Shown here: positions 1,501 through 50,872 of the stretch, one piece after another
Layout of the letters: every line of letters starts with the position of its first letter
Position numbering within the stretch: position 1 is the stretch's first letter
NCBI GenBank assembly: GCA_902781705.1
Contig: CACZKE010000002.1
Coordinates: 1-64,000, forward strand
DNA length: 64,000 bases
Source of the DNA: an uncultured Bacteroidia bacterium
GTDB taxonomy: Bacteria > Bacteroidota > Bacteroidia > Bacteroidales > UBA932
Direction: 5' to 3'
Notes under the pieces: model-generated
What the model was told of the DNA's origin: nothing
The model's database searches: none
The model's input: the letters and a program-made list of their open reading frames with translations, nothing else
Translations under genes and position numbers: made by a program

Positions 1501-2514
1501 ATGGTGACGATTTCGGACATAGCGGCCGCCCTGGGCGTGACCCCTTCCACGGTGTCCCGGGCCCTTTCGGGGAGCCCCCGCGTGAAGGAGGAGACCCGGC
1601 TGGCCGTCGAGCAGATGGCCGCCGAGATGGGCTACGAGCGCAATGTGGTGGCATCGAACCTCAGGAAGGGGAAGTCCGACATCGTGGGCATCATCGTTCC
1701 CCGCATCCACCGGAACTTCTTCTCCAACGTCATCGGCGGGGCCGAGTCCATCCTGGAGGCGGCCGGCTACTGCGTCCTGATCTGCCAGACGCATGAGCGC
1801 CTGGAAGCGGAGATGAAAGCCCTCCGGACACTCCGGAACAACCAGGTGGCGGGGGTCCTGATCTCCCATGCCATCGGCGCCCGGGACGGAAAACATATCC
1901 TGGATGCCCTGGGGAGCCATATCCCGCTGGTCCAGTTCGACCGCGTTTTCAGCGAACTTCCCGGAGCCAAGGTCGTCAGCGACAATTTCGAAGGCGCCTA
2001 TGCCGCCACCCGGCATCTGATGGAACAGGGATACCGCCATATCGGCACACTCGCCGGCTATATGAACTCCGAGGCCTATGCCGCCCGGCTGGAAGGCTGG
2101 CGGCAGGCGCTCCGGGACGGCGGGCTTCCGGAAGGGGAGGTCTATTACGATACCATCGTCCGGGAAACCGGCTTCGAGGCGGGCCTGAAGGCCATCGACG
2201 CGGGTTGCGACGCCCTGTACAGCGCCGGCGACTTTTCCGCCCTCGGGGCCGTCGAGGCCGCCCGTTCCCGGGGACTCCGCATTCCGGAGGACTTCGGCAT
2301 CGTGGGCACGGCCAACGAGACATTCACTTCCCTCATGACCCCGTCCATGAGTTCCCTTGCCCTGAATCCTTTCGAAATGGGACGTCAGGCCGCCCAGGCC
2401 TTCCTGGAAGGGGCGGACGGCGTCCGGGTTGTGCCCATGGAACTGAAAGTGCGCGAATCATCCTGCCGAAACCATTCTGAAAATCAAATAACCCATACCC
2501 CATGCCTAAAGTAG
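1501..2514 (+). CDS. LacI-family transcriptional regulator
   Basis: The product is 337 aa, the usual length for this family. The N-terminal helix-turn-helix (VTISDIAAALGVTPSTVSRA) is followed by the hinge and a periplasmic-binding-protein-like sensor domain from about residue 60 (DIVGIIVPRIHRNFFSN onward). The start at 1501 puts the DNA-binding domain at the very N-terminus; the open frame continues upstream, but the promoter lies in that part. It overlaps kdgK by 13 nt. By position it probably controls KDG catabolism or the pectin locus, with a pathway metabolite as effector; that role is inferred. Confidence 0.9.
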   Translation: MVTISDIAAALGVTPSTVSRALSGSPRVKEETRLAVEQMAAEMGYERNVVASNLRKGKSDIVGIIVPRIHRNFFSNVIGGAESILEAAGYCVLICQTHERLEAEMKALRTLRNNQVAGVLISHAIGARDGKHILDALGSHIPLVQFDRVFSELPGAKVVSDNFEGAYAATRHLMEQGYRHIGTLAGYMNSEAYAARLEGWRQALRDGGLPEGEVYYDTIVRETGFEAGLKAIDAGCDALYSAGDFSALGAVEAARSRGLRIPEDFGIVGTANETFTSLMTPSMSSLALNPFEMGRQAAQAFLEGADGVRVVPMELKVRESSCRNHSENQITHTPCLK

Positions 2515-3539
2515 TTACCTTCGGCGAAGTGATGCTTCGCCTCTCCACTCCGGGATACCTGCGCTTCTCGCAGGCCCACCAGTTCGATGCCACCTTCGGC
2601 GGCGGCGAGGCCAACGTGGCCGTTTCCCTTGCCAACTACGGTATTGACACCCAGTTCGTGACCCGTCTTCCGAAGAACGACATCGCCGACATGTGCCTTG
2701 CGGAACTCCGCGGCCTCGGCGTGGGCACCGACGGCATCGTCTATGGCGGCGACCGGGTGGGCATCTACTATCTCGAGACCGGTGCCGTCGCCCGCGGCTC
2801 CAAGGTCGTCTATGACCGTGCCCATTCCGCCATCTCCGAGATCCAGCCCGGTATGGTCGATTGGCACAAGGTCCTCGAAGGGGCCGACTGGTTCCACTGG
2901 ACCGGCATCACCCCGGCCCTGAGCCAGGGCGCCGCCGACGCTTGCCTCGAGGCGATCAAGGTCGCCAACGAGATGGGCGTGAAAGTCTCCTGCGACCTCA
3001 ATTACCGCAAGAAACTCTGGAAGTACGGCAAGTCCGCCTCCGAGGTCATGCCCGCCCTCGTGGAAGGCTGCGACCTCATCCTCGGCAACGAGGAGGACGC
3101 TGAGAAGGAATTCGGCATCAAGCCCGAGGGTTTCGACGCCGAGAAGACCGGCGGTGAGATCGACCAGACCCGTTTCGAGAGCGTCTGCCGCCAACTCATG
3201 GAGCGCTTCCCGCGCTGCAAGAAGGTGGCGGTCACCCTCCGCGGCTCCATCAACGCGAACCACAACACCTGGGGCGGCGTCCTCTATGATGGCAAGACCC
3301 TCTGGCAGTCCAAGCGTTACGACATCACCCACATCGTGGACCGCGTGGGCGGCGGCGACTCCTTCATGGGCGGCCTCCTGTACGGTCTCCTCGCTTACGA
3401 AACCGACCAGGAAGCCATCGAATTCGCGGCGGCCGCTTCCTGCCTCAAGCACACCATCATCGGCGACTACAACCGCGTCACCGTCTCCGAGGTCGAAGGT
3501 CTCATCAAGGGCGGCGGCTCTGGCCGTGTTTCCCGCTAA
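2502..3539 (+). CDS. kdgK: 2-dehydro-3-deoxygluconokinase
   Basis: This 345-aa PfkB-family sugar kinase phosphorylates 2-keto-3-deoxygluconate (KDG) to KDPG in the cytoplasm. The N-terminal GGGEANVAVSLANYG substrate-binding region and the C-terminal GGGDSFMGGLLYGLL signature with its catalytic Asp are visible. Pairing with kdgA downstream and uxaA in the same locus supports KDG rather than another sugar as substrate. Its start lies inside the 3' end of the LacI gene. It is separated from kdgA only by the GIY-YIG unit, which looks inserted between two functionally linked genes. Confidence 0.93.
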   Translation: MPKVVTFGEVMLRLSTPGYLRFSQAHQFDATFGGGEANVAVSLANYGIDTQFVTRLPKNDIADMCLAELRGLGVGTDGIVYGGDRVGIYYLETGAVARGSKVVYDRAHSAISEIQPGMVDWHKVLEGADWFHWTGITPALSQGAADACLEAIKVANEMGVKVSCDLNYRKKLWKYGKSASEVMPALVEGCDLILGNEEDAEKEFGIKPEGFDAEKTGGEIDQTRFESVCRQLMERFPRCKKVAVTLRGSINANHNTWGGVLYDGKTLWQSKRYDITHIVDRVGGGDSFMGGLLYGLLAYETDQEAIEFAAAASCLKHTIIGDYNRVTVSEVEGLIKGGGSGRVSR

Positions 3540-3552
3540 TCTTTTCGTTGAT

Positions 3553-3588
3553 TGTCATTTCGACCGAGCGCAGCGAGTGGAGAAATCT
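3553..3588 (-). repeat. REP-like unit, left flank of the GIY-YIG gene
   Basis: This 36-nt imperfect palindrome starts TGTCATTTCGACC and ends GGAGAAATCT. Its reverse complement matches the right-flank unit (3868-3903) at about 33 of 36 positions. The unit ends two bases before the GIY-YIG start codon and supplies a GGAG ribosome-binding motif at 3579-3582, eight bases from the ATG. Confidence 0.85.
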
Positions 3589-3590
3589 GA

Positions 3591-3869
3591 ATGTATAACA
3601 AGTATTACACATATATCCTCTCCAGCAATAACAATTCGACTTTGTACATCGGTGTTACAAACGATTTGGAAAGACGGTTGAATGAACATAGATCTGGATT
3701 GGTTCCCGGTTTTACCCAGAAGTATCATTGTGGAAAACTCGTGTACTATGAAGAGTATTCCGATATCAATCAAGCCATTGAGAGGGAAAAACAACTGAAG
3801 CATTGGTCCAGGTCAAAGAAAGATTGGCTGATAGATACCGTAAATCCTGAAAGGAAAGACTTATTGTAG
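3591..3869 (+). CDS. GIY-YIG nuclease-domain protein in REP-like repeats
   Basis: The product is 92 aa, one complete small GIY-YIG domain of the single-domain (UPF0213-like) type. The first motif is YYTYIL, the second LYIGVTNDLERRLNEH, which carries the conserved Arg, and a downstream Glu-rich stretch (YYEEYSDINQAIEREKQLKHW region) carries the metal-binding Glu. The gene is clearly richer in A+T than its neighbours, which suggests acquisition. Inverted 36-nt repeats lie directly at both ends: the left ends 2 nt before the ATG, and the right begins inside the TAG stop codon. This parallels REP-associated transposases. Its activity on the repeats is inferred; a DNA repair role is the alternative. 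Confidence 0.85.
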   Translation: MYNKYYTYILSSNNNSTLYIGVTNDLERRLNEHRSGLVPGFTQKYHCGKLVYYEEYSDINQAIEREKQLKHWSRSKKDWLIDTVNPERKDLL

Positions 3870-3963
3870 ATTTCTCCACGCGCTTCGCTTGGTCGAAATG
3901 ACAGAATAGCTTCGCTTGGTCGAAATGACAGAATAGCTTCGCTTGGCCGAAATGACAGAATAG
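3868..3963 (+). repeat. REP-like unit followed by a 27-bp tandem array
   Basis: The 36-nt unit at 3868-3903 (AGATTTCTCC...GAAATGACA) is the inverted partner of 3553-3588 and contains the last two bases of the GIY-YIG stop codon. Its distal part is then repeated: three 27-nt copies starting cttcgcttgg lie at 3883-3909, 3910-3936 and 3937-3963, with one base change in the third. The array stops just before kdgA. Confidence 0.85.
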
Positions 3964-3971
3964 AATTGCAT

Positions 3972-4634
3972 ATGTCCAAATTCAAGAAAATCGATACCAT
4001 CGGTATCATCCGGTCCACCGGCATCGTGCCGGTGTTCTACAATGCTGATATTGAACTCACGAAGAAGGTGGTGAAGGCCTGCTATGACGGGGGGATCCGC
4101 GCTTTCGAGTTCACCAACCGGGGGGACGGTGCGCACAAGGTGTTCGAAGCCCTGATGGCGTTCGTGCGCAGCGAGTGCCCGGAGATGGCGCTCGGTGCCG
4201 GCACCATCCTGGATGCGCCTACTGCAGCGCTGTATATCCAGATGGGTGCGGACTTCATCGTGTCTCCGTGCATGGTGGAGGAGGTCGTGACGCTGTGCAA
4301 CCGCCGCGGCATCCCGTATTCCCCGGGCTGCGGCACCGTGACGGAGATCGTCCATGCGCAGGAACTCGGCTGCGACCTGGTGAAGGTGTTCCCGGCCGGT
4401 ACCGTGGGCGGTCCCGCTTTCGTGAAGAACATCCTGGGCCCGCTGCCGTGGGCCATGATCATGTGCACCGGCGCCGTAGAGCCTGCCGAGGAGAATCTCA
4501 AGGCCTGGGCCAAGTCCGGCGTCACCGCCGTGGGCATGGGCTCCAAACTCTTCCCGAAGGAAGTCCTCAAGGCCGGTGACTGGGCCGCGGTCTCCGACCT
4601 CTGCGCGAAGAGTCTCGCCTGGTTCAAGGCGTAA
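3972..4634 (+). CDS. kdgA: KDPG aldolase
   Basis: The product is 220 aa, a class I aldolase of the Eda/KdgA family that cleaves 2-keto-3-deoxy-6-phosphogluconate to pyruvate and glyceraldehyde 3-phosphate; many members also act on 4-hydroxy-2-oxoglutarate. The Schiff-base Lys is in DLVKVFPAG, and GIRAFEFTNRG near residue 40 carries the expected Glu. I chose ATG at 3972 over a TTG at 3966. It completes galacturonate breakdown with kdgK and the uxa genes. The 27-bp repeat array lies directly upstream; GH43-CE15 follows after 19 nt. Confidence 0.93.
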   Translation: MSKFKKIDTIGIIRSTGIVPVFYNADIELTKKVVKACYDGGIRAFEFTNRGDGAHKVFEALMAFVRSECPEMALGAGTILDAPTAALYIQMGADFIVSPCMVEEVVTLCNRRGIPYSPGCGTVTEIVHAQELGCDLVKVFPAGTVGGPAFVKNILGPLPWAMIMCTGAVEPAEENLKAWAKSGVTAVGMGSKLFPKEVLKAGDWAAVSDLCAKSLAWFKA

Positions 4635-4653
4635 TCCTGCCCGAAAAACGGTC

Positions 4654-7593
4654 ATGAAACGGTTTCTCTTCGCAGGGGCGCTTTTGCTCGTGTGTTTGAC
4701 CCTGTCGGCGCAGTTCTGGTACCAGAATCCGGTGGTCCATGCCGATTATTCCGATCCGGACGTGTGCCGGGTGGGGGAGGACTACTGGATGACGGCGTCG
4801 TCCTTCAACTGCTTTCCGGGACTGCCCATCCTGCATTCGACGGACCTGGTGCACTGGAACCTCGTCGGTGCCGCGCTGACGGAGTACCCGGGTGGGGGCT
4901 GGGACGCGCCGGAGGATGATTTCCGGACGACGGTCCAGCATGGCAAGGCCGTATGGGCCCCGGCTATCCGGTTCCACGAGGGGTGGTACTACATCTATGT
5001 GGGCGACCCCGACCGGGGCATCTTCATGGTGCGGACGCAGAATCCGAAAGGCCGATGGGAACCGCCCGTGTGGGTGGTGAAGGAGAAAGGTTTCATTGAT
5101 CCGTGCCCGTTCTGGGATGAGGACGGAAACGCTTACCTGTCACATGGTTGCGCCGGGTCCAGGGCAGGGAACAAAAGCATCCTTTTCGTGGCGCCGATGG
5201 CTCTTGACGGGACCCGGCTGCTGGGCCCGTCCCGGATCGTGTATGACGGCCATCTGAGCCAGCCGACCATCGAAGGGACCAAGTTCTACAAGCGGGACGG
5301 GAAGTATTACATCTTCTCCCCGGCCGGCGGCGTCGCGACGGGCTGGCAGACGGTCCTCCGGGCCGACAACCCTTTCGGCCCCTATGAAGAGCGCATCGTC
5401 ATGGCCTGGGCTCCCGGTACCGTCAACGGCCCCCACCAGGGTGCCTGGGTGGATACGCCGGCGGGGGAGGATTGGTTCCTCCATTTCCAGGACAAGGGCG
5501 CCTACGGGCGCATCGTCCATCTCCAGCCGATGACCTGGCAGGCCGATGGTTGGCCGATGATCGGGGTGGATCCGGATGGGGACGGGGTCGGACAACCGGT
5601 TGCAGAATACAGATTTCTCGACTCCGCCTCCGGCTCCGCTCGAAATGACAAAAGAGTCCCTTCCGTCAGTAATGACAAAAGAAATGTCTCCGTACAGAAT
5701 GACAAAAGGTCTATTGTCATTCCGAGCGAAGTCGAGGAATCTGAAAGCCCTTATAAGCCTTACGGTATCGACCTCGCGTGGCAATATCCGGCAATCCCTT
5801 CACCGTACTGGCACTATGCGCTGCCGGAAGGGGGGGTGCGGCTGTACAGCGTGGATCAGAAATGGCCGTACAGGAGTCTGTGGGACTGCCCGAACTTCCT
5901 CTCGCAGAAATTTCCGGCCGAACGGTTCACGGTCCGCGCCCGCCTTTCCTTCCGCCCGAATCCGCAGTTGAAGGAGAAGGGCGAGCAGGCGGGATTTGCC
6001 GTCATGGGCAATGACTATGCCGGGCTCCGCCTGACGGATACGGAAGCGGGGGCGAAACTGGAATACGTCCAGTGCCCGGGCGCTTCCAAAGGCCAGCCGG
6101 AAACGGCGACGGAACTGGCCGTCCTGCCGTACCGTTATGATCCGCTTCCGCATTCCTATGAATCCCGGAACGTCCCGCTGGTGAACTACCCGGACGTCCC
6201 GGAGATTGTCCTTTGGGTCATGCTGGATGTCCGTGCCAAGGTCGTTGAGGGAAATGTCCCCGAAGCAGTCTGCCGGTTCAGTTACAGCCTTGATGGAAAA
6301 CGTTTTACGCAGGTTTCCGGGACCTTTGCGGCGCAGCCCGAACTCTGGGTCGGTGCCAAGTTCGGCTTCTTCTGCAACCGTTTCGCCCCGAAGAACGACT
6401 CCGGCTGGGTGGACGTGACGGATCTCGAAGTCAAGACGATGTTCGAACCGGCCGAAGGGTTTGTCCGGGAGGAAAGCGGGGTGCCGGCCTATACGCTGCC
6501 GGATGTTCTTGCCGGGGCGAAAACGGTGAAAGAGTGGGAGAAGAAACGTCGGCCGGAACTCTATGCCCTGTTCGAACAGGAGATGTTCGGCACCGTCCCC
6601 GAAAAACCGGAAGGACTTCATTTCCAGGTCCGTGAGAGCGCGCCAGATGCGCTGGACGGCCTGGCTACCCGCCGGCAGGTCCGGATCTATTTCGACGCGG
6701 CGGAGACGCTGTACGAAGACTTGCTGCTGTATATTCCGAACGGCCGGAAGGGACCGGCGCCGGCTTTCCTGGGCGTGAATTTCCGCGGGAACCATACGAT
6801 CGGCCCGGATCCGTCGGTCCTCCTGCCCGATTCCCTCCGGTATCGGAAGGACTATGTCCTGGACCCGCGCGGCTCCCAGTCTTCCCGCTGGCCGCTCAGG
6901 GCCATTCTGGAAAGGGGGTATGCCGTCGCAACCTTCTGCTGTGAGGATGTCGTTCCCGATGCCGACGGCTATCCGGGTATCCGGGCCGCGTATCCCGGGT
7001 ACACCTGGGGTGCCCTCGCCGCCTGGGGATGGGGACTTTCCCGCGCCCTGGATTATCTGGAAACGGATGCCGATGTGGACGCCGGACGGGTCGCTGTATT
7101 CGGTCATTCCCGCATGGGCAAGGCCGCCCTTTGGGCCGGTGCCCGCGATGCCCGCTTCGCCATGGTCATTTCCAACGCCTCCGGCTGCGGCGGCGCGGCG
7201 ATTTCCCGGAGGCGGTTCGGAGAAACGGTCCGCCGGATCAACACGCATTTCCCGTACTGGTTCTGCGGCAATTTCCACAAATACGGCGACAACGAGGATA
7301 TGCTGCCCTTCGACCAGCATGAACTGCTGGCCCTTATCGCCCCGCGTCCGCTCTATGTGGAAAGCGGCAGCGAAGACAGCTGGGCCGATCCGCACGGTGA
7401 ATTCCTGAGCCTTTCCGGTGCGGCGCCTGTTTATGAACTCTATGGCTATGAGGGATTTAAGGATTCCGAGTGGCCGGCCATTGAGCAACCCGTCTCCAAG
7501 GGCCGCAACGGCTACCATATCCGCCGCGGACGCCATGACATCCAGGAGTACGACTGGCTCCGCTATCTGGATTTCGCCGACCGGAATCTCTAG
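4654..7593 (+). CDS. GH43-CE15 bimodular hemicellulase with a repeat-coded linker
   Basis: The product is 979 aa with a Sec signal peptide (MKRFLFAGALLLVCLTLSA). Residues about 25-315 are a GH43 five-blade propeller (HADYSDPDV with the catalytic Asp, then APAIRFHEGWYYIY), arabinosidase or xylosidase-like. Residues 320-363 are encoded by a REP-like element. A beta-sandwich typical of GH43 C-termini follows to about 600. Residues about 608-979 are a CE15 glucuronoyl-esterase domain: serine elbow GHSRMGKAALWAG, and the DQHELLALIAPRPL segment with the catalytic His. Predicted role: removing side chains and cleaving 4-O-methylglucuronoyl esters of xylan. Its stop overlaps the convergent LacI gene by 4 bp. 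Confidence 0.85.
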   Translation: MKRFLFAGALLLVCLTLSAQFWYQNPVVHADYSDPDVCRVGEDYWMTASSFNCFPGLPILHSTDLVHWNLVGAALTEYPGGGWDAPEDDFRTTVQHGKAVWAPAIRFHEGWYYIYVGDPDRGIFMVRTQNPKGRWEPPVWVVKEKGFIDPCPFWDEDGNAYLSHGCAGSRAGNKSILFVAPMALDGTRLLGPSRIVYDGHLSQPTIEGTKFYKRDGKYYIFSPAGGVATGWQTVLRADNPFGPYEERIVMAWAPGTVNGPHQGAWVDTPAGEDWFLHFQDKGAYGRIVHLQPMTWQADGWPMIGVDPDGDGVGQPVAEYRFLDSASGSARNDKRVPSVSNDKRNVSVQNDKRSIVIPSEVEESESPYKPYGIDLAWQYPAIPSPYWHYALPEGGVRLYSVDQKWPYRSLWDCPNFLSQKFPAERFTVRARLSFRPNPQLKEKGEQAGFAVMGNDYAGLRLTDTEAGAKLEYVQCPGASKGQPETATELAVLPYRYDPLPHSYESRNVPLVNYPDVPEIVLWVMLDVRAKVVEGNVPEAVCRFSYSLDGKRFTQVSGTFAAQPELWVGAKFGFFCNRFAPKNDSGWVDVTDLEVKTMFEPAEGFVREESGVPAYTLPDVLAGAKTVKEWEKKRRPELYALFEQEMFGTVPEKPEGLHFQVRESAPDALDGLATRRQVRIYFDAAETLYEDLLLYIPNGRKGPAPAFLGVNFRGNHTIGPDPSVLLPDSLRYRKDYVLDPRGSQSSRWPLRAILERGYAVATFCCEDVVPDADGYPGIRAAYPGYTWGALAAWGWGLSRALDYLETDADVDAGRVAVFGHSRMGKAALWAGARDARFAMVISNASGCGGAAISRRRFGETVRRINTHFPYWFCGNFHKYGDNEDMLPFDQHELLALIAPRPLYVESGSEDSWADPHGEFLSLSGAAPVYELYGYEGFKDSEWPAIEQPVSKGRNGYHIRRGRHDIQEYDWLRYLDFADRNL
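5611..5742 (+). repeat. REP-like element inserted in frame in the GH43-CE15 gene
   Basis: The 132-nt block (44 codons) begins AGATTTCTCGAC and ends with an inverted copy, TTGTCATTCCGAGC...GAATCT. Between them AATGACAAAA recurs at 5644, 5671 and 5698, a 27-nt period, giving three nine-residue units that begin NDKR. It starts on a codon boundary, has no stop in the reading frame, and lies between the GH43 propeller and its C-terminal sandwich. Confidence 0.88.
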
Positions 7594-10300: not shown

Positions 10301-12072
10301 TAGATTTCTCCACTTCGCTTCGCTCCGGTCGAAATGACAAAGGCTTGATTGCGCTTCGCTCCGGTCGAAATGACAGGGGATTGTCATTCCGAGCTTGTCG
10401 AGGAATCTGCTTCCTCTTCAGTATCTGGCTCGTGGCCAGTTCCTTCACGACCATTCACCTGATGGGCGATTCCACGATGGCGAACAAGGACCTGTCCGAC
10501 GGGAAGCCCGAGCGCGGCTGGGGCATGATGTTCCCGAATTTCGTGGACAGCACGCTGCATGTGGTCAATTATGCGCAGAACGGCCGCAGCACGAAGAGTT
10601 TCATCGACAAGGGTCTCTGGGACAAGGTGTATAATGCCTTGCAGCCCGGGGACTATGTCTTTATCGAGTTCGGCCACAATGATGCGAAGGCCGACGATCC
10701 CGAGCGCTACGCCGCTCCCTTCGGCGCCTACCAGGACAATCTCCGCACCTTCATCCGCGGGGCCCGTGAGAAGGGCGCTACACCGATCCTCCTGACGCCG
10801 GTGGCCCGCCGCTGGTTCAAGGAAGGCAAGCTGGACCGGAACTGCCACACGGACTATCCCGCTGCGATGAAGCAGGTGGCCGACGAGATGGGCGTCACCC
10901 TGCTGGATATCACGACGCCCACGCTGGACTGGATCGAGTCCCTGGGCGACGAGGCTTCCGCCCCGTATTTCATGAACCTTCCGGCCGGCAAGTACGCCTG
11001 TGCCCCTGAGGGAAAGACCGACAACACCCATACCGTGGCCGCCGGCGCCCGCAAGGTGACGGAAATCGTCTGCGAGGCCCTGAAAAAGCAGGTCCCGACC
11101 ATCGGCGACCACCTGGTCCGGTACGATATCGTCGTGGACCGGAACGGTTTCGGCGACTACATGACCGTGCAGGAAGCCATCGACGCGGTGCCGAACTACA
11201 GCCATGAGAAGATAACGACCATCCTGATCAAGGCCGGCACTTACAAAGAGTGCATCGACATTCCCCATACCAAGTTCCGGATGAAGATTTCCGGGCAGGG
11301 TGCGGACAAGACCATCCTGACCTACGACCGCTATGCGAAGCAGGTCTGGCCCGGCAGCGGTTTCCCGGTGGGAACCTCCGGCAGCGCCAGCATCTACATC
11401 CACTCCAGTTACGTGACCTTCGAGGACATCACCTTCGAGAACACGGCGGGAGAGGGGAAGGAAATCGGCCAGGCCGTGGCCGTCTTCACCGACGGCGACT
11501 TCCTGTTCTTCCACCGCTGCCGCTTCATCGGCAACCAGGACACCCTCTATACCTATGGCCGTTTCGGAAAGGAAGGCGGTATCAAGCGCAACTATTTCCT
11601 GGACTGCTACATCGAGGGAACGACCGACTTCATCTTCGGCCCCAGCATCGCCTATTTCGAGAACTGCCACATCCACAGCAAGAAGAACAGTTATGTGACG
11701 GCGGCTTCCACCCTTCCGGGGCAGAAGTACGGCTATGTGTTCAAAAACTGCCGGCTTACGGCCGATCCCGGCATCGACAAGTGCTACCTGGGACGTCCCT
11801 GGGGCGCCTATGCGAAGACGGTCTTCATCGGCTGCGAACTGGGTAGCCATATCGTGGCGGACGGTTGGCACGACTGGGAGAAGGAAGGGAAACCCAATAC
11901 CAAGAAGAATTCCTATTACGCTGAGTATCAGAATGTCGGACCCGGCGCCCGGGGACCCCGCGTGAAATGGGCCCATACCCTTACCGCGAAACAGGCCGCC
12001 GAGTATTCCTTCGAGAAAGTGATGTATCAGGCGGAGGACGGCATCCGCTGGAACCCTTACGACAACCGCTGA
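10297..12072 (+). CDS. CE12-CE8 pectin acetylesterase / methylesterase fusion
   Basis: The open frame is 591 aa. An SGNH esterase domain of the CE12 rhamnogalacturonan acetylesterase type spans about residues 52-270 (MGDSTM, EFGHND, DNTHTVAAGA). A CE8 pectin methylesterase beta-helix follows (GNQDTLYT, DFIFGPS, LGRPWGAY). It removes acetyl and methyl esters so lyases and GH28 can act. The first 37 or so codons are REP-like repeat sequence, and a hydrophobic run CFLFSIWLVASSF follows. The ATG at 10297 overlaps the GH28 stop. An in-frame TTG at 10381 would give a more normal signal peptide, so the true start is unsure. Confidence 0.87.
   Translation: MIDFSTSLRSGRNDKGLIALRSGRNDRGLSFRACRGICFLFSIWLVASSFTTIHLMGDSTMANKDLSDGKPERGWGMMFPNFVDSTLHVVNYAQNGRSTKSFIDKGLWDKVYNALQPGDYVFIEFGHNDAKADDPERYAAPFGAYQDNLRTFIRGAREKGATPILLTPVARRWFKEGKLDRNCHTDYPAAMKQVADEMGVTLLDITTPTLDWIESLGDEASAPYFMNLPAGKYACAPEGKTDNTHTVAAGARKVTEIVCEALKKQVPTIGDHLVRYDIVVDRNGFGDYMTVQEAIDAVPNYSHEKITTILIKAGTYKECIDIPHTKFRMKISGQGADKTILTYDRYAKQVWPGSGFPVGTSGSASIYIHSSYVTFEDITFENTAGEGKEIGQAVAVFTDGDFLFFHRCRFIGNQDTLYTYGRFGKEGGIKRNYFLDCYIEGTTDFIFGPSIAYFENCHIHSKKNSYVTAASTLPGQKYGYVFKNCRLTADPGIDKCYLGRPWGAYAKTVFIGCELGSHIVADGWHDWEKEGKPNTKKNSYYAEYQNVGPGARGPRVKWAHTLTAKQAAEYSFEKVMYQAEDGIRWNPYDNR
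10302..10408 (+). repeat. REP-like element at the 5' end of the CE12-CE8 gene
   Basis: Starts AGATTTCTCCACTTCGC, contains two GGTCGAAATGACA ends 36 nt apart (aatgaca at 10333 and 10369), then the inverted unit TTGTCATTCCGAGC...GAATCT. It begins four bases after the GH28 stop and replaces the expected signal-peptide region of the downstream gene. Confidence 0.87.
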
Positions 12073-24083: not shown

Positions 24084-24152
24084 AGATTTCTCCACGCGCT
24101 GCGCTTGGTCGAAATGACAGTGGGTGTCATTTCGAGCGAAGTCGAGAAATCT
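24084..24152. repeat. REP-like inverted pair upstream of uxaC
   Basis: AGATTTCTCCACGCG...GAAATGACA, five bases, then TGTCATTTCGAGC...GAGAAATCT: two facing units of the family seen at 3553. It separates the SusE-position gene from uxaC. Confidence 0.87.
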
Positions 24153-27250: not shown

Positions 27251-27277
27251 TGTCATTCTGAACGAAGTGAAGAATCT
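27251..27277 (-). repeat. Short REP-like half unit between uxaA and uxaB
   Basis: TGTCATTCTGAACGAAG...GAATCT has the ends of the family at 3553 but only 27 nt, as though degenerate or truncated. Confidence 0.6.
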
Positions 27278-48342: not shown

Positions 48343-50805
48343 ATGAAACGCATCTCTATCATCCTGATCGTCCTTCTCACCGGGCTCGTCGCCTCCGCGC
48401 AGGAAATCCGCACCGTCAAAGGTGTCGTCCTCGATTCCCTGACCCGCCAGGGCGAACCCGCCGCCATCCTGCAGTTCTTCAAGGCCGATGACGCCTCCAA
48501 GCCCGTCGCTTTCACGACCACGGCCGAGGACGGCTCTTTCTCCCATACCTTTACCGTCAAGGGCGACTACTATCTGCTCTTCGACAACATGGGCCGGAAA
48601 CAGGTGCGCCGGAATTTCACCATCAACGGCCACGAGGTCATCGACCTGGGCGAAATCCTTGTCCAGGATGCCGCCGAAGTCCTGAAAGCCGGCACCGTCA
48701 CCGCCCAGCGTCCGCTGGTGAAGATGGAGGTGGACAGGATGATCTATAATGTGGAGGACGACGTGGATTCCAAGACCTCCACCGTCTTGGACATGCTCCG
48801 GAAGGTGCCCATGGTCTCCGTGGACGGCCAGGACAACATCACCGTCAACGGCTCCTCCTCCTTCGTCGTCTATGTCGATGGAAAACCCAACCAGATGCTC
48901 TCCCAGAACGCTTCCACCGTCTTCAAGATGATGCCGGCGAGCGCCGTGAAGAACATCGAGGTCGTGACCAATCCGGGCGTCCGCTATGACGCCGAAGGCG
49001 TGGGCGGTGTCCTGAACATCACCACCAACCGGGAGGTGACCGGCGGACAGAACGTGACCGACGGCTTCTACGGAACCCTCCGCGGCATGGCCTCCACCCG
49101 CGGCTACGGCGGCGGCCTGTACGGCAGCATGCAGAAGGGAAAATTCGCCATGAGCGTGAACCTCAATGCGATGGACAACCGGAATCCCGGCGCCACCACC
49201 GATGTGGAACGTGTCCAGGAGGGAGGTATGACCACCAAGACCCACAGCAAGACCGACATGCACATGCCCATGGTGATGGGCACGGTCAATGCCAGTTACG
49301 AGATCGACTCCCTGAACCTCGTTTCCGCGACGGCCGGCCTGATGCGCTTCGGCATGTCCTCCACCGGCATTTCCTCCACGGATATGTCCATGCCCGGCTA
49401 CTCCTTCTCCTACGACGGCACGACCTATTCCGAAAATTCCCGCAACAACATCAGCGCCGGGGCCGACTACCAGCACCTCTGGGCCGATGCGCCGGGCCGG
49501 AACTTCACCCTGTCCTATCAGTTCAACGGCAGCCCGTCTGTCGTGAACACCCGCAATACCTTCGGCGGGGCCTCGGCCGAGGGCTTCGACCTCACCGACC
49601 GCCGGACCGACGGCCTGCAGAACTCCCTGAGCCATACGGTCCAGGCCGATTTCACCACCCCCGTCGGCGAAGGCCAGACCATCAACACCGGCGCAAAATA
49701 CATCTACCGGCACAATTCCTCCGACCAGACGGCCTATCTCTGGAACGGCAGCGATTTCGTCCACAATGCCCTCGGCGACCTGACTTACGACTTCTACAAC
49801 CGCATCGGCGCCGTCTATTCCGAGTATGCCGGCACTTTCGGACAGTTCGGGATCAAGGGCGGTGTCCGCTATGAGCACACCTGGCAGTCCTACGACTCTT
49901 CCGCCCAGAATCAGCCGTTCAGCGTGAATTACGGCAGTCTGGTCCCGAGCGCCAGCATTCAGTGGAGCCCGGCGATGACCCAGAACATCGGCCTCAGCTA
50001 CAACCTGCGCATTTCCCGTCCGGGCATCTCCTACCTGAATCCCTACGTGGACACTTCCGACCCGACGGCCCTCAGTTACGGAAATACGGACCTCGACGTG
50101 GAGAAGGGACACAACATCAACCTGGTTTACAACTACTTCACCAACGGCGTGATGGTCAATGCCACCCTGCGCCACAGTTACACCGGCAACGGCATCTCCC
50201 CATACAGTTTCTATGACGAGGACAATCTCCTGAACACCACCTACGGCAACATCGTCCAAAGCCGGAACACCGGCCTGAACGCCTATGCGATGATCACCCC
50301 CTGGCCCAAGACCCGGATCATGGTCAACGGCGGTGTCAGTTACAGCGACATCCGGTCCGAAATCCTCGACCAGCGGAACTGGGGCTGGAACTACAATGCG
50401 ATGATCGGCCTCCAGCAGACGATGTTCTGGGACCTCCGCCTGAGCGCCAACTTCATCAAGGCCGGCCGCAGCGTCTCCCTCCAGGGCTGGAACAGCGGCA
50501 TGTCCATGGGCATGCTGGGCCTGACGAAGACCTTCTTCGACGACCGCCTGAGCATCTCCGTGAACGGGGTCACCCACCTCACCAAGGGCAAGGACCTGAC
50601 CATCCAGTCCTTCTCCGCCGGCAAGGGCTTCACCATGAACACGCTGACGACCGTACCGATGCGCCAGGTCCTCTTCCAGGTGAGTTGGACCTTCGGCAAG
50701 CAGGGCAACTACTCCGCCAAGCGCACCCGCCGCACCATCCAGAACGAGGAGCAGCTCAACAGCACCACCACGGCCGAAAGCATGGGTTCCATGATGATGC
50801 AGTAG
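48343..50805 (+). CDS. TonB-dependent receptor-like outer-membrane protein
   Basis: The product is 820 aa with a signal peptide (GLVASAQ). After a carboxypeptidase-like beta-sandwich (TVKGVVLDSLTRQGEPAAI) comes a plug domain (MLRKVPMVSVDGQDNITVNG, DGKPNQML, IEVVTNPGVRYDAEGVGGVLNI). A barrel of the OMP_b-brl_3 type follows. There is no SusD partner, so this is the non-SusC branch, often used for siderophores, metals, peptides or sensing; the ligand is unknown. The last base of the stop codon is shared with a REP-like pair. Confidence 0.85.
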   Translation: MKRISIILIVLLTGLVASAQEIRTVKGVVLDSLTRQGEPAAILQFFKADDASKPVAFTTTAEDGSFSHTFTVKGDYYLLFDNMGRKQVRRNFTINGHEVIDLGEILVQDAAEVLKAGTVTAQRPLVKMEVDRMIYNVEDDVDSKTSTVLDMLRKVPMVSVDGQDNITVNGSSSFVVYVDGKPNQMLSQNASTVFKMMPASAVKNIEVVTNPGVRYDAEGVGGVLNITTNREVTGGQNVTDGFYGTLRGMASTRGYGGGLYGSMQKGKFAMSVNLNAMDNRNPGATTDVERVQEGGMTTKTHSKTDMHMPMVMGTVNASYEIDSLNLVSATAGLMRFGMSSTGISSTDMSMPGYSFSYDGTTYSENSRNNISAGADYQHLWADAPGRNFTLSYQFNGSPSVVNTRNTFGGASAEGFDLTDRRTDGLQNSLSHTVQADFTTPVGEGQTINTGAKYIYRHNSSDQTAYLWNGSDFVHNALGDLTYDFYNRIGAVYSEYAGTFGQFGIKGGVRYEHTWQSYDSSAQNQPFSVNYGSLVPSASIQWSPAMTQNIGLSYNLRISRPGISYLNPYVDTSDPTALSYGNTDLDVEKGHNINLVYNYFTNGVMVNATLRHSYTGNGISPYSFYDEDNLLNTTYGNIVQSRNTGLNAYAMITPWPKTRIMVNGGVSYSDIRSEILDQRNWGWNYNAMIGLQQTMFWDLRLSANFIKAGRSVSLQGWNSGMSMGMLGLTKTFFDDRLSISVNGVTHLTKGKDLTIQSFSAGKGFTMNTLTTVPMRQVLFQVSWTFGKQGNYSAKRTRRTIQNEEQLNSTTTAESMGSMMMQ

Positions 50806-50872
50806 ATTCCTTCGTCGCTTCGCTCCTCGGAATGACAGGTTGTCATTCCGAGCCCGGAGGGCGAAGGAATCC
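50804..50872. repeat. REP-like inverted pair between receptor and LytS genes
   Basis: AGATTCCTTCG...GGAATGACA, three bases, then TGTCATTCCGAGC...GAAGGAATCC. The GATTCC/GGAATC ends mark a subtype of the family at 3553. It overlaps the receptor stop codon. Confidence 0.85.

Follow-up and report, generated by a model that had tools for sequence, protein, structure and literature searches.

Palindromic repeats with a CGTC tag (CGTC REPs) have been described in Proteobacteria, Bacteroidetes, Spirochaetes and other groups, with hosts that include A. lipoferum, N. aromaticivorans, S. meliloti and Neisseria, and, in the part of the description available to us, they "apparently lack a dedicated transposase" (Di Nocera et al. 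2013, PMC3733652). In the same part, no RAYT is found with CGTC units at its flanks, and the few associations with other transposases are called fortuitous (PMC3733652), RAYTs being linked to another REP superfamily in the accessible sections of PMC3116915. The stand-alone Slx1-like/UPF0213 family of GIY-YIG proteins is reported to be mainly vertically inherited, with flanking repeats not mentioned in the accessible portion of that report, and GIY-YIG domains are classical homing nucleases (PMC1564403). Among the papers listed by our literature searches, often the top 15-30 of more and outside of which most subscription papers and bioRxiv lay, none links a GIY-YIG nuclease to these REPs, and the link is absent from the accessible parts of two papers on REPs and MITEs (PMC12306157, PMC10969869).

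Here, we report the analysis of a small GIY-YIG nuclease gene that is bracketed by inverted REP-like units in a 64,000-nt stretch of DNA (hereafter, the window) from an uncultured member of the Bacteroidia, and of its homologues and their flanking repeats. On balance, we favor the view that the Slx1-like nuclease and a lineage-specific family of YGTC-tagged REPs form one coupled mobile system, a nuclease counterpart of RAYT/REP. The features of the locus are as follows.

2502..3539, plus strand: sugar kinase, which we take to be kdgK-like; left border of the insertion site
3553..3588, plus strand: left REP-like unit, TGTC-ATTTC...GAAAT-CT, with the tag end pointing away from the gene
3591..3869, plus strand: GIY-YIG nuclease gene, 92 aa, Slx1/UPF0213-like (PF01541)
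3868..3903, minus strand: right REP-like unit, inverted, overlapping the stop codon
3882..3962, minus strand: three tandem 27-nt truncated units, the first being part of the right unit
3972..4634, plus strand: aldolase, presumably eda-like; right border of the insertion site

An earlier note on this DNA, made from the sequence alone, had described an inverted pair of 36-nt units, about 33/36 identical, that closely bracket a small, A+T-rich GIY-YIG gene, and all of this holds. The two units are each 36 nt long and match at 33/36 positions once inverted; the left one ends 2 nt before the ATG and provides the GGAG located 8 nt upstream of it, and the TAG stop codon shares 2 nt with the right one. 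The GC content of the gene is 38.0%, compared to 60.5% for the window, which places it at the 0.03rd percentile among 279-nt stretches. Two more tandem truncated copies follow the right unit (3909-3962), and the tandem array as a whole (3882-3962) suggests slippage or repeated copying at that end. PADLOC gave no match to a defense system, and no known RNA family scored above its gathering threshold between 3401 and 4100.

The encoded protein matches PF01541 with E=4.1e-20 in a profile search and thus belongs to the GIY-YIG superfamily; in NCBIfam, the sole match is a sub-threshold one to a group I intron endonuclease. Twenty positions are invariant among 47 aligned sequences (the window protein and 46 of the best 80 loci discussed below), including Y8, Y19, R29 and E66, among which we presume the catalytic residues to lie. 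A structure model with a pLDDT of 92.9 was compared to solved structures using Foldseek: the UPF0213 protein 1zg2 was the best match (E=8e-5) and the only one below 0.001, followed by Slx1-Slx4 complexes at about 0.01, with UvrC behind (E=0.3). Sequence relatives in the PDB at E<=0.01 numbered two, both UPF0213 proteins. In both fold and size, the protein thus resembles the stand-alone prokaryotic Slx1-like/UPF0213 proteins, with 1zg2 and 1ywl as the nearest solved structures, and, judging from the model, the characterized enzyme closest to it in fold is Slx1, which cuts branched DNA. GIY-YIG enzymes are hydrolases that form no covalent intermediate, and therefore strand transfer of the RAYT type is not expected.

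The flanking units share with CGTC REPs the YGTC end tag, a stem starting with AT, a small hairpin and the frequent arrangement as inverted dimers; the 36-nt unit of the window differs in being longer, with an interrupted stem, and the accessible part of the CGTC REP description mentions no nuclease partner (PMC3733652). CGTC REPs are marked by a terminal CGTC, or TGTC/CCTC, adjoining a stem with AT at its start; TGTC-AT is present in both window units, and YGTCAT units lie by most homologues among the best 80 of 580 loci. An exact 5-nt stem partner is found at 101/116 nearest YGTCA sites, compared to 6% in mononucleotide shuffles. We analyzed covariation in 104 distinct 26-nt units from all loci, gene-flanking or not, for which the ends alone served as the selection criterion. 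Watson-Crick pairs are formed in 74-79% of these units at stem positions 3, 4, 5 and 8, which had no part in the selection, where 34-41% would be expected, and several pair types occur at each of these positions. The figures for positions 6 and 7 are 41% and 39%, against 27% and 25%, and positions 9 and 10 pair no more than expected. A covarying hairpin is thereby shown to be the predicted fold of the units. GA faces GA between the stems in 33/104 units, and 24/104 have a GNA center in which N is free. The stem of 8-9 bp, the 4-5-nt loop and the CCA tail that go with CGTC REPs fit many alphaproteobacterial units (e.g., CGTCATTCCCGCGAAAGCGGGAATCC). In the window unit, mismatches separate an outer stem of 5 bp from an inner one, and the end is CT. 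According to the available part of PMC4686876, GCGAAGC with its GNA loop forms a DNA mini-hairpin of extraordinary stability, which suggests that the form recognized may be single-stranded or extruded DNA.

Copies of the repeat that lack the gene occur elsewhere in the window.

5612..5650, minus strand: gene-less unit, paired with 5715-5741
5715..5741, plus strand: gene-less unit, paired with 5612-5650
10303..10339, minus strand: gene-less unit, paired with 10382-10407
10382..10407, plus strand: gene-less unit, paired with 10303-10339
24085..24119, minus strand: gene-less unit of the nuclease gene's own subtype
24125..24151, plus strand: gene-less unit
27251..27276, plus strand: gene-less unit of the TTCTGA subtype, which also flanks the second small nuclease gene of the genome
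28725..28761, plus strand: gene-less unit
50805..50837, minus strand: gene-less unit, paired with 50841-50871
50841..50871, plus strand: gene-less unit, paired with 50805-50837

A 29-nt core with <=3 mismatches is found three times in the window (expected, 0.00), two of these being the gene's own units. The earlier note had the same units recurring without the gene at six or more other places; this stands at the level of the superfamily, with ten more units at six places, but the TTTCGACC subtype itself is present at only three (10.3, 24.1 and 28.7 kb), the rest being sister subtypes. The host genome (G000; 3.07 Mb in 43 contigs) contains 212 matches, including a few overlapping doubles, to the superfamily pattern TGTCATTYYGAN{6,34}RRAATC (TGTCATTYYGA...RRAATC), compared to 0 for the reversed control, and the superfamily thus has about 200 dispersed copies in this genome, with one of the window pairs intragenic. 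A pattern of the nuclease gene's own subtype (<=3 mismatches) has 26 matches (control, 0). Three PF01541 matches were found in G000: this gene, a second small gene (L002) and one in a 779-aa frame, presumably UvrC. The product of L002 is 71% identical to that of the window gene, and L002 has its own, related unit at either end, TGTCATTCTGAGCGTCAGCGAAGAATCT to the left and, inverted, TGTCATTCTGAGCGAAGCGAAGAATCT to the right. The intragenic pair is part of an apparent REP insertion (5576-5741) within the ORF at 4576-7593, where REP units and partial NDKR-coding tandem repeats are read in frame as a linker between halves that we take to be glycosidase-like and esterase-like, in this order.

The homologue set analyzed here consists of the best 80 of 580 loci by protein similarity in a search of a genome collection, and these come from Bacteroidota, Clostridia, Spirochaetes, Fibrobacteres, Omnitrophota, Planctomycetes, Cyanobacteria, Proteobacteria, Patescibacteria and others. 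A strict unit was defined as [CT]GTCAT followed by a 5-nt stem with its reverse complement 4-60 nt further on, within 150 nt of the gene and with the tag outward. Among these best 80 of 580 loci, such units flank the gene on both sides in 40/80 and on one side or both in 65/80; for control ORFs, the counts are 1/223 and 15/223 at distances above 400 nt and 0/114 and 20/114 closer by. Thus, most homologues examined lie next to the repeats, counter to the outcome that the earlier note had named as fatal to its proposal; 15/80 have no correctly oriented strict unit. In the opposite orientation, strict units occur upstream in 16/80, downstream in 13/80 and on both sides in 5/80. In a permissive test, from which L113 (ORF mis-set), L129 and L062 (both redundant) were left out, the counts were 49/77 on both sides and 70/77 on either, with controls at 4/233 and 47/233. 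The unit definitions and repeat classes were devised after the first flanks had been seen, and the re-test with a fixed definition is that of the alphaproteobacterial order, from which L187 was left out: with the strict definition unchanged, 18/29 loci have a unit on either side and 8/29 on both, against 2/19 and 0/19 controls, a smaller effect. Seven further alphaproteobacterial loci (4/7 either, 2/7 both) were not added to these counts; they are mostly second copies, and at least L192 repeats an earlier locus. The association between nuclease and repeat is very secure.

In each of four CGTC-REP hosts, namely, A. lipoferum, Novosphingobium aromaticivorans, Sinorhizobium meliloti and Neisseria, a homologue adjoins such repeats, with strict units in two cases and repeats read by eye in the other two. 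In Novosphingobium aromaticivorans, CGTCGCCCCGTGCTTGACACGGGG is found on both sides of the homologue, and in Sinorhizobium meliloti, related CTCATCCCTGTGC-type palindromes lie near both sides in mixed orientation; both were missed by the AT rule. The N. gonorrhoeae homologue has strict units in mixed orientation. Within 200 nt of a Rhizobium tumorigenes homologue, no strict unit is present. At G115:C145:13467-13807 (one unit per 63 nt) and G116:C30:38435-39265, REP units form tandem arrays next to a nuclease gene.

Nuclease and repeat are matched by subtype. The left and right 5-nt stems are identical in 41/73 loci, compared to 9% of cross-locus pairs (L052, L058 and L113 left out, redundant rows kept). 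When repeat classes are mapped on the nuclease tree (89 rows, without L062, L187, L129 and rows that had no unit or were of the class 'other'), 30 changes are required, against 54.8 when shuffled (minimum 48 of 300) and 45.9 when shuffled within phyla (minimum 39); for Bacteroidota alone (42 rows), the values are 14 and 24.3 (minimum 20). The tree is built from few columns and is poorly resolved, with 71/133 inner branches open. TTGCGA units adjoin related nucleases of Omnitrophota, Planctomycetes and Cyanobacteria. As far as can be read from these comparisons, the repeat subtype is shown to follow the nuclease lineage, also within phyla. The layout is also tight: a stop codon lies <=5 nt from a unit in 30/94 loci, and a start codon <=20 nt from one in 36/96.

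As in RAYT/REPIN systems, then, the enzyme gene is flanked by inverted copies of its own multicopy REP subtype, gene-less copies and dimers are present, and enzyme and REP co-diversify (compared with the accessible part of PMC3116915). The differences are that the flanked enzyme is a GIY-YIG protein rather than an HUH/Y1 transposase and that the repeats are tagged with YGTC rather than GTAG. A working partnership of nuclease and REP is likely; that the nuclease nicks or moves the repeats, as the earlier note proposed, is a good inference from the sequences, and nuclease-driven spread of the repeats is the best, if unproven, reading of them. Given the predicted Slx1-like fold, the mechanism that we propose is cutting of the repeat hairpin followed by copying through host repair. 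In the manner of Slx1 recognition of branched DNA, the nuclease would bind the hairpin, extruded or single-stranded, that is formed by its own REP subtype and would cut at or near the YGTC tag; with hydrolysis that involves no covalent intermediate, the liberated or nicked unit would be copied by host repair into a second break or a replication fork. Such a process would be closer to homing than to HUH strand transfer, and the gene-less units and dimers would be its non-autonomous passengers. Nuclease-driven copying by host repair would be shared with the GIY-YIG homing endonucleases of the I-TevI type; unlike in these, intron and intein are both absent, the 92 aa contain no further domain, and the spread would be tied to short dispersed hairpins.

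The earlier note had called for a comparison of empty and filled sites, and between species such sites were found at two positions. Thirty kinase loci were read, from 61/91 genomes with a match, including 29 relatives of the same genus as the host. The gap between kinase and aldolase is 1-63 nt in 28/29 relatives (8 nt in G003, whose kinase is 97% identical), 164 nt in the remaining one, and 432 nt in G000, which alone among the 30 loci has a gap that consists of the unit, the gene, the right unit and truncated tandem units. The 164-nt gap, in G027, contains repeats without the nuclease gene, and the 63-nt gap of G019 also contains a repeat unit; in the other 27/29 relatives, the gap is too short for such a unit or has none on reading. 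In Azospirillum lipoferum 4B, the homologue separates sufB from sufC by 617 nt and is located between two inverted CGTC-REP dimers, with one unit imperfect, rather than inside one dimer. The corresponding gaps are 91 nt in A. ramasamyi, 87 nt in A. oryzae, 129 nt in strain B510 and 55 nt in A. thermophilum (96.6%, 95.8%, 95.6% and 90.1% identical, respectively, to A. lipoferum over the aligned pieces), and in these four relatives no such repeat unit was seen by eye; a fifth, unannotated Azospirillum relative has a gap of about 32 nt, also by eye. Counting its own position, the left-hand A. lipoferum dimer is matched at 22 places across 8 Azospirillum records, with 75-100% identity at the best places.

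Because the gaps of the relatives are mostly too short or free of units, the gene and the REPs probably arrived together, and the comparison shows repeats and gene as an apparent single block at two sites (kdgK-eda and sufB-sufC) that are empty or nearly so in relatives. The block has inverted ends, as insertion sequences do, and no target-site duplication was recognized by eye at either site, where the relatives are too diverged. The Rhizobium plasmid series yielded no empty site, all eight records that cover >=80% of the query having the gene annotated there. Among 19 chosen loci, mostly from the host genus and most with 1.5 kb per side, 4/171 pairs share a neighboring protein, and therefore the gene occupies different sites. 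It can also be multicopy, in contrast to the RAYTs, each of which is single copy in the accessible part of PMC3116915. Overall, the likeness to the REP-transposase layout seen in the earlier note extends across phyla, with matched subtypes and arrival as a block.

An alternative is that REPs already in place serve as landing pads and spread by other means, the nuclease gene being a selfish passenger of the homing type that inserts into them or is copied from one to another. We regard this as unlikely, although several observations fit it. REPs far outnumber the genes and persist without them, the A. lipoferum gene lies between two dimers, G027 and G019 carry repeats without the gene at the kinase-aldolase junction, and homing is a classical role of GIY-YIG nucleases (PMC1564403, available in part). 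In addition, the close solo pairs of G000 (read from 93 entries among the 212 matches) have their tags inward in 17/22 cases, with spacers of 3-298 nt, often about 40-80, whereas the tags of the gene's pair point outward. The dimers of G243 (13) and G178 (5), which were picked because they are paired, have outward tags and near-constant lengths (95-99 and 115-116 nt). At L337 (G178:C23:96821-97096), the sequence just 3' of the nuclease gene (TTGAGGAATGGATCCC) resembles the inner end of the gene-less dimers of G178, hinting that these may derive from a gene-bearing element. As a general rule, the reading of solo dimers as simple gene-less deletions of the gene element was rejected: the orientation agrees in G243 and G178 but not in G000, and hence we do not claim it in general.

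The abundance of the repeats bears on the same question. Within the host genus, the median is 33.5 units in 16 gene-bearing genomes and 3 in 75 gene-less ones (p=2e-4; 5e-4 without the host), and among 34 genomes with at most one unit, a match was found in G071 only, as a weak fragment. The earlier note had held that abundant repeats in genomes devoid of the gene would count against it; this is partly borne out, with >=40 units in 11/75 same-genus genomes in which no homologue was detected, yet the gene-bearing genomes carry more. Nine of these 11 were searched with PF01541: eight have a UvrC-sized match alone, and in G090 a frame of 170 aa gives a weak match in addition. The search works, as all 46 genomes searched yielded a UvrC-sized match. 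In the alphaproteobacterial order, at least 5 copies of one subtype are found in 22/76 gene-bearing and 4/45 gene-less genomes (p=0.007), or in 19/67 and 7/54 if weak matches are counted as gene-less (p=0.03). One of the 22, G243, has 77 CGTC units, and the single GIY-YIG match there belongs to a different type and lies by other repeats. The p-values are to be taken loosely because the genome sets are related and include many drafts. Strict co-occurrence of gene and repeats is ruled out by these counts, and the relation is a statistical one.

From the REP-rich genomes without the gene and the opposed orientation of solo pairs, it follows that maintenance and spread of the repeats may be separate and that the gene could be a passenger. 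What speaks against pre-existing landing pads is that 27/29 kinase-aldolase gaps and, by eye, the four Azospirillum gaps have no unit, that the subtype tracks the protein within phyla, and that start and stop codons often lie near units. The coupled system of nuclease and repeat remains the reading that we prefer.

A further possibility is a cruciform resolvase, host-serving or domesticated, through which REP hairpins are cleared or made tolerable; the nuclease would then be co-inherited with the REPs without spreading them. The modeled similarity to Slx1, a branched-DNA nuclease, is compatible with such a role, as is the correlation, albeit not absolute, between gene and REP abundance. A housekeeping gene should keep its place, though, and the sites mostly differ between relatives, as judged from short flanks; furthermore, a genome can have up to 10 nuclease matches, some of them weak or fragmentary. 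We therefore consider this explanation quite improbable.

Other GIY-YIG proteins in the collection have surroundings of their own. At L057 (G113:C20:13975-14904) and L059 (G122:C72), another type lies directly behind apparent tRNA 3' ends, and in G113, it is present in three copies, one every 354 nt, with the tRNA-like end and a terminator-like hairpin repeated; this type is possibly a tRNA-targeting relative. Another clade (YTGST and similar; L052, L054 and L055, and L331 in G243) lies near other palindromic repeats, e.g., GTACCCTGAGCGGAGCCGAAGGGTAC and GTCAGCCTGAGTTTATCGAAGGC, and perhaps represents a second nuclease-repeat pairing.

REPs are common intergenic elements, and as terminators or RNA signals they might bracket any small intergenic gene by chance or for a function of their own. 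The abundance of REPs and the ribosome-binding-like GGAG supplied by the left unit would agree with this, and among control genes with >=100 nt of intergenic sequence on each side, 20/83 have a unit by the permissive test on one side or both. Units on both sides are found in only 2/83 of these controls, against the 49/77 homologues given above, and neither the matching of subtypes nor their tracking of the nuclease tree would be expected, which makes mere decoration very improbable.

RAYT-like (Y1/HUH) transposases as the movers of the repeats, with the nuclease incidental, are scarcely credible and were ruled out as the repeat partner. In their favor, Y1_Tnp matches occur in 13/14 genomes (the host and 13 REP-rich gene-less genomes of the genus), and RAYTs are linked to the other REP superfamily in the accessible part of PMC3116915. 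Against them, 20 of the 29 loci listed were read, and just one carries a TGTCATTCTGA unit within 200 nt in the tested orientation, on a single side; another is flanked on both sides by a different repeat (TGTCACGATACA), and at two more a unit is located downstream in the other orientation. Nor is any RAYT flanked by CGTC units in the accessible part of PMC3733652.

We see an even chance that the missing enzymes that disperse YGTC-tagged REPs across many phyla are Slx1-like GIY-YIG nucleases of small size, that is, a second, independently evolved system that would rely on hairpin cutting and host repair instead of transposase chemistry, with each lineage tuned to its own subtype. YGTC-tagged palindromes are widespread, and the question of what spreads them, left open in the accessible part of PMC3733652, would be answered by a matched enzyme. 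The matching of subtypes makes the pairing of nuclease and REP directly testable. If true, the proposed system would explain why some genomes have several small GIY-YIG genes, and it would provide, beside RAYT/REPIN, a second natural experiment on the persistence of tiny replicators in genomes.
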